Origin: Eubacterium sp.
GTDB lineage: Bacteria > Bacillota > Clostridia > Lachnospirales > Lachnospiraceae
NCBI GenBank assembly: GCA_022769785.1
Contig: JALEIY010000116.1
Location: forward strand, 1-40,561
Direction of reading: 5' to 3'
Length of the DNA: 40,561 bases
Shown here: piece after piece, positions 824 through 5,017 of the stretch
Numbering within the stretch: position 1 is the stretch's first letter
Layout: each line of letters begins with the position of its first letter
Notes under the pieces: model-generated
Told to the model about the DNA's origin: nothing
What the model saw: the letters and a program-made list of their open reading frames with translations, nothing else
The model's database searches: none
Program-made: the position numbers and the translations under genes

Positions 824-842
824 GTCAACGAAATAAAAAATG

Positions 843-969
843 GTCTTCAGGGCAGGGTGAAATTCCTGACCGGCGGTAAGCATCCAGGCGGATGTAAGCC
901 CGCGAGCCTGTAAAAGGCATGATCCGGTGAGATTCCGGAGCCGACGGTACAGTCCGGATGGAAGAAGAT
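843..969 (+). ncRNA. FMN riboswitch (RFN element)
   Basis: Conserved core CAGGGTGAAATTCCTGACCGGCGGTAAG...AGCCCGCGAGC...GATCCGGTGAGATTCCGGAGCCGACGGTACAGTCCGGATGGAAGAAG. Confidence 0.97.
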
Positions 970-1016
970 GACAGGATGCAGAAAAGATTTTGCATTTTTA
1001 TTCGATATGTTTATAT

Positions 1017-1057
1017 GTCCTGAGATTTATCAAAGATAGATTTCAGGACTTTTTTCA
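1017..1057 (+). terminator. Riboswitch expression-platform terminator
   Basis: GTCCTGAGATTTATC-AAA-GATAGATTTCAGGAC followed by T6; a second T-rich hairpin (ATGCAGAAAAGATTTTGCATTTTTA) lies just upstream. Confidence 0.8.
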
Positions 1058-1111: not shown

Positions 1112-2209
1112 ATGATAAAACCGGAATATATGAGAAGAGCCATTGAACTGGCCAAAAAAGGAAGTGGCCGTGTGAATCCCAATCCCATGGTTGGCGCAGT
1201 AATCGTCAGAGATGGGGAGATTCTCGGAGAAGGCTATCACGAGTGTTACGGACAGCTTCATGCAGAGAGAAATGCTATCGCTCATGCCAAAGCAGCCGGA
1301 CACACATTGGAAGGCAGCACCATTTATGTTACCCTGGAGCCCTGCTGTCATTACGGAAAGACACCGCCGTGTACCGAAGCCATTATTGAAGAGGGCATTG
1401 CCCGGGTTGTCGTCGGTTCTGATGACCCGAATCCGAAAGTAGCCGGAAAAGGATTTCAGATTCTGAGAGAAAAAGGAATCGAAGTGATTCCTCATTTCCT
1501 GAAAGAAGAATGTGATGCCATTAATGATGTTTTCTTTCATTATATACAGACGGGACAGCCATTTGTGGCAATGAAGTACGCCATGACCATGGACGGAAAG
1601 ATTACCTGCCATACCGGAGATTCCAAATGGGTGACCGGAGAGACTGCAAGAGGATATGTTCAGCATCTGAGAAATCATTATAAGGGTATTATGGCAGGGA
1701 TTGGAACCGTACTGGCAGATAACCCTATGCTCAACTGCCGTCTGGAAGGCGGACGGAACCCGGTCAGAATTATCTGCGATAACCATCTGCGGATTCCGAC
1801 AGACAGTCAGCTTGTGGAAACAGCGGCTGTACAGCCGTTAATTGTGGCCTGTATGGAGGATGCCGACAGGGAAAAAGAGGAGCAGCTTACAAAAAAAGGA
1901 GTCGAGGTGCTCCGGCTGCCGGAAAAAGACGGCGTGATTGACCTTGCCGTCCTCATGAAAGAATTGGGTGAAAGAAAGATTGACGGCATACTTCTTGAAG
2001 GAGGCGGAATCCTCAATGAGAGCGCTCTCCGGGCGGGTATCGTACAGAAGGTATACGCCTTTGTGGCACCAAAGATTTTCGGTGGTGCCGATGCCAAAAC
2101 TCCGGTAGAGGGAACGGGACAATCTCTCGCTGCGCAGGCCTGGCAGTTTACGCAGACCGGCATAACACAGCTTGGAGAGGATATCCTTCTGGAATATCGG
2201 AAACAATAA
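1112..2209 (+). CDS. ribD: Bifunctional diaminohydroxyphosphoribosylaminopyrimidine deaminase / 5-amino-6-(5-phosphoribosylamino)uracil reductase
   Basis: HAERNA...EPCCHYGKTPPCTEA deaminase motif; start chosen with RBS GGGAGGAG. Confidence 0.96.
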   Translation: MIKPEYMRRAIELAKKGSGRVNPNPMVGAVIVRDGEILGEGYHECYGQLHAERNAIAHAKAAGHTLEGSTIYVTLEPCCHYGKTPPCTEAIIEEGIARVVVGSDDPNPKVAGKGFQILREKGIEVIPHFLKEECDAINDVFFHYIQTGQPFVAMKYAMTMDGKITCHTGDSKWVTGETARGYVQHLRNHYKGIMAGIGTVLADNPMLNCRLEGGRNPVRIICDNHLRIPTDSQLVETAAVQPLIVACMEDADREKEEQLTKKGVEVLRLPEKDGVIDLAVLMKELGERKIDGILLEGGGILNESALRAGIVQKVYAFVAPKIFGGADAKTPVEGTGQSLAAQAWQFTQTGITQLGEDILLEYRKQ

Positions 2210-2230: not shown

Positions 2231-2881
2231 ATGTTTACAGGAATTATAGAAGAAGTCGGAGTGATTAAAAGCATTCGCATGGGCGCACAGTCAGCCGTAA
2301 TCACCATTGAGGCGGAGAAAGTGCTTGAAGACATTCATCTGGGCGACAGTATAGCCATGAACGGGGTATGTCTGACCGTGACATCCTTTGACAGTCACAG
2401 CTACAGCGTGGATATCATGCATGAATCCCTGAAAAGAACCAATCTTGGCTCCCTGAAAAGCGGAAGCCGCGTGAATCTGGAGCGGGCCATGGCTGCGGAC
2501 GGACGTTTCGGAGGTCATATCGTTGCCGGTCACGTGGACGGAACCGGCAAAATCACAGCCATGGAAAAAGATGATAACGCTGTGTGGATTTATATACAGG
2601 CGGAGCCGTCCGTTTTGAAATATATCGTGGAAAAAGGCTCCATTACCATTGACGGAATCAGCCTTACCGTGGCAAAGGTTGATGAGAAAAGCTTTGCGGT
2701 TTCTGTAATTCCACATACGGGAACGCACACCACTCTTCTGGAGAAAAAACCGGGAGATACGGTCAATCTGGAAAATGACATGATTGGCAAATATGTAGAA
2801 AAGCTTTTAAATTATCAGGAAAAAGAGAATAAGCCCTCTTCCCGAATTACGATGGAGTTTTTGAGAGAAAATGGATTCTGA
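2231..2881 (+). CDS. ribE: Riboflavin synthase alpha chain
   Basis: [10 protein letters not shown] start, duplicated lumazine-binding domain. Confidence 0.96.
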
Positions 2882-2930: not shown

Positions 2931-4139
2931 ATGAGCGATTTTCAGTTCAATACGATTGAAGAAGCAATCGAAGATGTAAAACAGGGAAAAATGGTCATTG
3001 TCGTGGATGACGGTGAGAAAGAAAATGATGGTGTTTTAGTGGCGGCCGGAGAATATGCCGTTCCGGAAACCGTAAACTTTATGCTGACATACGGAAAAGG
3101 TCTTCTGACCATGCCGATTTCCGAAGAGGCGGCAGAAAAAATCGGTGTGAAGGAAATGATATGGGAGAACAGAGCGAAATATCACTCCGGTTCCACCGTA
3201 TCTTTAGACAGTGTGAAGGTCGAGGACGGTTTTTCCGCAGCAGACCGTTCTACTACAATTATGGCAGCAGCATCAGAAAATGCGGTGCCGACAGATTTCA
3301 AACGCCCGGGTAATATTTTCCCGAAGGTAGCCTTAAAAGGGGGCGTATTAAAGAGAACCGGATTTACCGAGGCTTCCGTGGATTTGGCAGTGATGGCAGG
3401 ATTGCAGCCGGTGGCAATTCGATGTGGTATTCTCGATGAAGAGGGTTCCGTGGCAAAGGTACCGGAACTCATTGAATTCTCCAAAAAGCATGACATCAAA
3501 ATTATTACCATCGCCGATATGATTCAGTACAGAAGAAGAACCGAGAACTTCGTAAACTGCGAAGCGGAAGCGGATTTCCCAACCAAATACGGTCATTTCC
3601 GGATTCGCGGATATGTCAATAAATTAAACGGAGAACATCATGTGGCAATTATCAAGGGAGATGTTTCCGATGGAAAACCGGTACTTTGCCGTATCCATTC
3701 CGAATGTCTGACCGGGGATGCCCTTGGTTCAAGAAGATGTGACTGCGGACAGCAGTATGCGGCAGCCATGAACATGATTGAAAAAGAAGGCCGCGGCGTA
3801 CTTGTTTATATGCGTCAGGAAGGCCGTGGAATCGGTCTGATTAACAAGCTGAAGGCCTACGTTCTTCAGGAACAGGGACTTGATACCGTGGAAGCAAATA
3901 TCGCCCTTGGATTCCCGGAGGATTTAAGAGATTACGGTATTGGTGCACAGATTCTGGCAGACCTTGGAATCAAAGAGCTTCGCCTTATGACAAACAATCC
4001 GGCAAAGGTAGTAGGATTATCCGGCTACGGCATTGAAATCGTGGAAAGAGTACCAATCGTCATGGAAGCGCATGAAGATGACCGCCGTTATCTGAAAACA
4101 AAACAGGAGAAAATGGGTCACTATACCTGGTATGAATAA
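2931..4139 (+). CDS. ribBA: RibBA-type protein: GTP cyclohydrolase II fused to a degenerate DHBP-synthase-like domain
   Basis: C-terminal RibA motifs [25 protein letters not shown] intact; N-terminal RibB fold with altered active-site residues (see findings). Confidence 0.93.
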
Positions 4140-4240: not shown

Positions 4241-4714
4241 ATGGGAGTAAATGTATTTGAAGGAAAACTGGTAGGCGGAGAAGAGAAAATCGGTATTGTC
4301 TGTGCCAGATTTAATGAGTTTATTGTATCAAAACTGTTAGGCGGTGCCGTAGACGGACTGGTTCGTCACGGAGTAAAAGAAGAAAACATTGATGTGGCAT
4401 GGGTTCCGGGTGCTTTTGAGATTCCGTTAATCTGTGAAAAAATGGCATCTTCCGGAAAATATGACGCAGTTATCGCACTTGGAACAGTCATTCGTGGAGC
4501 AACCAGCCATTATGATTATGTCTGCAACGAAGTTTCCAAAGGTGTGGCACAGGTTGGACTTAACGCAAAGATTCCGGTATTATTCGGTATCGTTACCACA
4601 GAAAATATTGAACAGGCTATCGAGCGTGCAGGTACAAAAGCAGGAAATAAAGGTTATGACTGTGCATTGGCTGCAATTGAAATGATTAATCTTATCAAGG
4701 AGATTGAAAAATAA
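4241..4714 (+). CDS. ribH: 6,7-dimethyl-8-ribityllumazine synthase
   Basis: [42 protein letters not shown]. Confidence 0.97.
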
Positions 4715-4810: not shown

Positions 4811-5017
4811 ATGGCAGCACAGATTACAAAACAGACTTTGATCGGTGAGATGCTTCAGATGGATATGGGAATTGCCGCAATCTTAATGGCAGCCGGTATG
4901 CACTGTGTGGGATGTCCTTCTTCCGCAATGGAGAGCCTTGAGGAAGCGTGCATGGTTCACGGAATGGACGCAGACGATGTTCTTGCCCGCATTAATGAAT
5001 ATCTGGCAAATAAATAA
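4811..5017 (+). CDS. DUF1858-domain protein
   Basis: [19 protein letters not shown] motif; RBS AGGAGG. Confidence 0.85.

Follow-up and report, generated by a model that had tools for sequence, protein, structure and literature searches.

In the gut butyrate-producing genus Anaerobutyricum, a complete riboflavin (vitamin B2) operon is kept by the whole genus, and yet one of the two riboflavin precursors depends on a sole enzyme that appears, from its sequence, to have no active site. This enzyme is the N-terminal RibB (DHBP synthase) half of a fused ribBA gene, which is very probably a folded pseudoenzyme with no activity, joined to a GTP cyclohydrolase II (RibA) half that looks intact. The missing precursor, 3,4-dihydroxy-2-butanone 4-phosphate (DHBP), probably comes from elsewhere, perhaps via a little-known sugar kinase placed under the same vitamin sensor.

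The requirement for RibB has been used as a signature of riboflavin prototrophy (e.g. PMC6593275), and homology-based annotation counts Anaerobutyricum genomes as having RibB. If RibB were dead throughout this genus, either the predicted prototrophy would be wrong or an unrecognised route to DHBP would exist, and the riboswitch-linked kinase makes the question of the DHBP source directly testable.

The rib operon and the intact RibA half

The window, that is, the whole 40,561-nt stretch of DNA analysed, comes from a genome of Anaerobutyricum, with A. hallii DSM 3353 among its relatives. An FMN riboswitch is followed by the genes in the order ribD-ribE-ribBA-ribH (Table 1). The start codon of ribBA is the ATG at 2931, with AAAGGAGG upstream, and the Pfam domains DHBP_synthase and GTP_cyclohydro2 span residues 10-200 and 211-375 of its product, respectively.

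Table 1. Features of the rib operon, of the RibB active-site positions (E. coli numbering) and of the riboswitch-linked kinase locus
Feature	Position	Strand	Evidence or state
FMN riboswitch aptamer (RF00050), upstream of ribD	839..973	+	115.4 bits, gathering score 66.2
Hairpin resembling an intrinsic terminator, with T tract, behind the aptamer; probable expression platform	1017..1055 (hairpin 1017-1049)	+	15-pair stem, T run
ribD, deaminase/reductase	1112..2209	+	dCMP_cyt_deam_1 and RibD_C
ribE, riboflavin synthase	2231..2881	+	Lum_binding
ribBA, fusion of a degenerate RibB and an intact RibA	2931..4139	+	Pfam domains, alignment
RibB (DHBP synthase) domain, putative pseudoenzyme	2958..3530	+	PF00926, 217 bits; PDB RibB chains match the model
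R37 position	3018..3020	+	Lys here; variable within the genus
D42 position	3033..3035	+	Val here; A/S/T/V in the genus
C67 position	3108..3110	+	Thr here; T/A/S in the genus
T107 position	3225..3227	+	Asp here; highly variable
H136 position	3312..3314	+	Asn here; N/S/T/M or H in the genus
H153 position, metal ligand	3363..3365	+	Phe here; Phe or Tyr across the whole genus
E174 position	3426..3428	+	Gly here; G/D/V/N/H in the genus
GTP cyclohydrolase II (RibA) domain, intact	3561..4055	+	PF00925, 257.9 bits; 57/60 canonical-invariant columns invariant in Anaerobutyricum
ribH, lumazine synthase	4241..4714	+	DMRL_synthase, 204.3 bits
Second FMN riboswitch, terminator hairpin and FGGY sugar kinase	L061:792-2722 (own genome, contig C112)		hairpin between aptamer and kinase

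The RibA half of the window scored 268 bits against TIGR00505, for which the cut-off is 205.85, and it has the zinc-binding Cys set and the active-site motifs, including RQEGRGIGL, which change little if at all among the other aligned Anaerobutyricum sequences. That the RibA half is intact and the operon riboswitch-controlled had been described in the first-pass annotation, and the PF00925 match, the motifs and the column invariance all agree with it. Across the genus, RibA, RibD, RibE and RibH are conserved with intact motifs and the riboswitches persist as well; the deaminase HAE and PPC motifs were present in all 19 RibD sequences, and the AGNKG motif in all 19 RibH sequences (13 of which also matched a stricter RibH pattern). 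Directly after ribH lies a gene for a DUF1858 protein (4811-5017), and a DUF1858-like gene is found behind ribH in some relatives also. A PADLOC run gave no matches.

Loss of the RibB active site across the genus

The RibB half scored 217 bits against PF00926, compared with 271-308 bits for canonical relatives and 277-308 bits for the canonical RibBAs from other genera of the same family and order. Alignment bore out every substitution that had been named in the first-pass annotation (R37K, E40D, D42V, GVTTG to VEDG, H136N, H153F and E174G) and revealed further changes, C67T and a Leu-to-Lys replacement in FPLRA. In RibB of Vibrio cholerae, His154, the equivalent of H153 in E. coli, coordinates the M1 metal, and the equivalents of E38, E40 and H153 are treated as catalytic (PMC5228156). 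On the other hand, E38 and several other pocket residues persist, which speaks against a pseudoenzyme; the window retains E38, D33, D34, D113, R114, R150, T154, E155 and C173. The metal ligand Glu38 is nevertheless D, T, S or N in 5 of the 23 genus sequences. The predicted structure of the RibB half is a high-confidence RibB fold (pLDDT mostly near 90), which PDB RibBs match with TM scores of 0.8-0.95 by target length. Thus the fold is kept but the residues that handle metal and substrate are gone, so that RibBA probably acts as a GTP cyclohydrolase II whose N-terminal domain has a structural role.

The nine positions R37, E38, E40, D42, C67, T107, H136, H153 and E174 are invariant in the 17 canonical RibBAs taken from other genera, whereas R37, D42, C67, H153 and E174 were replaced in all 23 Anaerobutyricum sequences and retained in 17/17 of the others. 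Since all 23 Anaerobutyricum sequences share the core losses and none of the 17 RibBAs from elsewhere has them, chance or sequencing error is excluded. The first-pass annotation had left the spread of the H153 and E174 substitutions to be followed: the former position is Phe or Tyr, and the latter is replaced, throughout the 23, while both residues are kept in the 17 from other genera. A DHBP synthase domain (PF00926) was detected in 22 of 24 genomes of the genus. Scanning GTDB species genomes with patterns specific to the degenerate form retrieved 20 loci, of which those carrying a genus name were all Anaerobutyricum (A. hallii DSM 3353, A. stercoripullorum and A. avicola); the remainder were recorded as uncultured Lachnospiraceae or as Eubacterium, and many of these matched Anaerobutyricum genomes already in the sample.

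Constraint on the two halves of RibBA

The divergence of the RibB half relative to the RibA half was 3.51 in Anaerobutyricum, compared with 1.07 in canonical RibBAs. Within the genus, dN/dS was 0.156 for the RibB half versus 0.036 for the RibA half, both rough values because dS is high. Columns invariant in canonical RibBAs were still invariant in Anaerobutyricum at 19 of 57 positions in the RibB half, as opposed to 57 of 60 in the RibA half. Anaerobutyricum formed one clade in the trees of both halves, which indicates that the RibB half decayed in place. One species (G021) has a deletion of about 60 residues in the RibB core, which removes T107, D113, R133 and H136; the same genome retains the RibA half, RibD, RibE, RibH and the riboswitch, in addition to the riboswitch-linked kinase described below.

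The genus-wide loss of the active site, the faster divergence of RibB only and the large internal deletion in one species together support the earlier suggestion of a dead RibB half. As for its role, purifying selection still acts on the domain and a fold is predicted for it, as would suit a structural function that has been retained. Of the roles proposed before, the structural one is the best fit. A new catalytic role is unlikely, given the drift at positions that were once catalytic and the loss of the middle of the domain in one species.

A sugar kinase behind a second FMN riboswitch

Searching the genus for FMN riboswitches revealed a second one in most Anaerobutyricum genomes. In 20 of the 23 genus genomes that hold the gene, an FGGY kinase lies 126-472 nt downstream of this riboswitch on the same strand; in the other three (G011, G014 and G023) the kinase is present without a riboswitch. 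The kinase is absent from G005, which is 97% complete. The riboswitch upstream of the kinase scored 115.1 bits against RF00050, above the gathering score. Further FMN riboswitches precede RibU-like ECF transporter genes (L065:6631-7257, L143:5906-6523 and L144:1386-2030).

The kinase shares the FGGY architecture of XylB and LsrK, with both FGGY domains and with the conserved GAGD and ATP-site motifs intact, and it falls below every listed NCBIfam functional cut-off. It scored 220 bits where the xylulokinase cut-off is 380, and has a GDGIICGI motif in place of the M-H pair of XylB; for the AI-2 kinase LsrK, the score was 136 bits versus a cut-off of 528. An FMN-riboswitch sugar kinase was not found in our literature searches.

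Outside the genus, close homologues were identified in only 7 genomes when the family was sampled twice, with overlap, at 250 and 397 genomes, and a class sample of 392 genomes gave no homologue besides that of the window's own genome. Three of the seven, each from another genus (G072, G230 and G714), carry the kinase with its own FMN riboswitch; in a fourth genus (G290), it is the fifth and last gene of the rib operon. Two genomes of one genus have it without an adjoining riboswitch (G118, with a RibB that is canonical by alignment, and G798, in which RibB is known only as full-length and high-scoring). The seventh (G263) has a kinase of 51% identity and neither RibB nor an FMN riboswitch. 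Among the genomes sampled from other genera, six thus combine the kinase with a full-length, high-scoring RibB, and the five of these RibBs that were aligned all have intact active-site residues. The kinase thus coexists with canonical RibB, and its distribution is not that of a strict replacement for RibB.

Naming the neighbouring genes by eye, we observed that the rib operon with the kinase in G290 (L138:3707-8123) is followed by Sir2-like, NusG-II-like, transporter-like and ApbE-like genes, and that a Sir2-like gene adjoins the kinase in L140 and L180 too. In G263 (L142:4595-8098), the kinase adjoins a gene resembling a RuBisCO-like protein and a HAD phosphatase.

Possible sources of DHBP

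As the motifs and the conservation of RibD, RibE and RibH are kept, a four-carbon donor is presumably still needed. Conservation of ribD, the RibA half, ribE and ribH behind an FMN riboswitch makes it probable that the genus still synthesises riboflavin and is prototrophic, and in that case DHBP would come from another route. The FGGY kinase is the best candidate for such an alternative route to the four-carbon precursor. It may phosphorylate 3,4-dihydroxy-2-butanone (1-deoxytetrulose) directly to DHBP, or make a precursor of DHBP, and a kinase repressed by FMN should help to raise flavin. Perhaps, then, the riboswitch-controlled kinase forms DHBP from a free ketone precursor and so released RibB from selection, a proposal that we put forward tentatively. 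The kinase is under flavin control also where RibB is canonical, so that its tie to flavin is independent of RibB decay, and formation of DHBP or its precursor is the best fit for both settings, as a dead RibB could make no use of ribulose 5-phosphate and the genomes searched already have RibF. A bypass that arose first and later allowed RibB to decay fits this distribution and is not proved by it.

It is also plausible, though short of an even chance, that riboflavin is made, RibB is dead and the kinase has nothing to do with DHBP, acting for instance as a ribulokinase or in flavin salvage. DHBP would then come from an unrecognised enzyme, or would be replaced by diacetyl reacting non-enzymatically with 5-amino-6-ribitylaminouracil. 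This would suit the FMN control of the kinase in genera with canonical RibB; however, a dead RibB would gain nothing from a ribulokinase acting before it, and RibH is conserved. A replacement flavokinase was rejected, as the RibF flavokinase was found in all 19 genomes searched and no replacement is needed.

Another explanation is that the genus is losing riboflavin synthesis, with RibB decayed first, the rest residual and riboflavin imported. The RibU-like ECF genes under FMN riboswitches in several genomes and the presence of riboflavin in the published growth media consulted would favour it, and no published riboflavin-free growth test for the genus was found in the literature searched. We consider it rather unlikely, as the genus has kept RibA, RibD, RibE and RibH, motifs included, and the riboswitches persist.

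It is still less probable that a rearranged active site lets the RibB half go on making DHBP, or that this half carries out just the final steps, starting from a 2,3-dicarbonyl (phospho-DPD-like) intermediate that the kinase provides. In chemical terms, phospho-DPD is both the dicarbonyl intermediate in RibB catalysis and what AI-2 kinases of the FGGY type produce, and E38, D33, D34, D113, R114, R150, T154 and E155 are mostly retained, with the GFTEA segment conserved. Nevertheless, the His ligand of the M1 metal is Phe or Tyr everywhere, other catalytic positions drift and the core is deleted in G021. The AI-2/DPD route was also lowered by the absence of LuxS, the source of DPD, from 3 of the 12 Anaerobutyricum genomes searched (G000, the window's own, G003 and G005).

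Whether another ribB could supply DHBP had been raised from the window alone; whole-genome PF00926 searches of its own genome (89.7% complete) and of near-complete genus members found single copies, with no second match in the former and one degenerate copy each, with no second, in G004 (one contig, 99% complete), G008, G017 and G020. A second canonical ribB hidden in unassembled parts is thus most improbable: several genus genomes are incomplete MAGs and in one of them (G014) another contig (L010) carries a fragment of a canonical RibB, but that genome is 6% contaminated and the fragment is probably a contaminant.

Comparison with known RibBA proteins

Some plant RIBA paralogues, e.g. RIBA3 of Arabidopsis, are GTP cyclohydrolases II with a non-functional DHBP synthase half, and plants keep a bifunctional RIBA1. 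In Anaerobutyricum, unlike in plants, the degenerate RibBA is the only copy. The best PDB match of the window model was 4i14, the bifunctional RibBA of Mycobacterium tuberculosis (RibA2, Rv1415), with which it shares the order of the two domains, the fold and the operon context; it differs in that the RibB catalytic residues are lost and only the RibA half looks functional. The proteobacterial RibBX (Shewanella, Bradyrhizobium and Aeromonas; structure 6mnz) also has one degenerate half and belongs to a riboflavin operon, but there it is RibA that is dead and RibB that is active (PMC10012899), so that the window protein, with a degenerate RibB and an intact RibA, is its mirror image. Additional copies of rib genes are present in Aeromonas and Shewanella, whereas the ribBA of Anaerobutyricum has no other RibB beside it.
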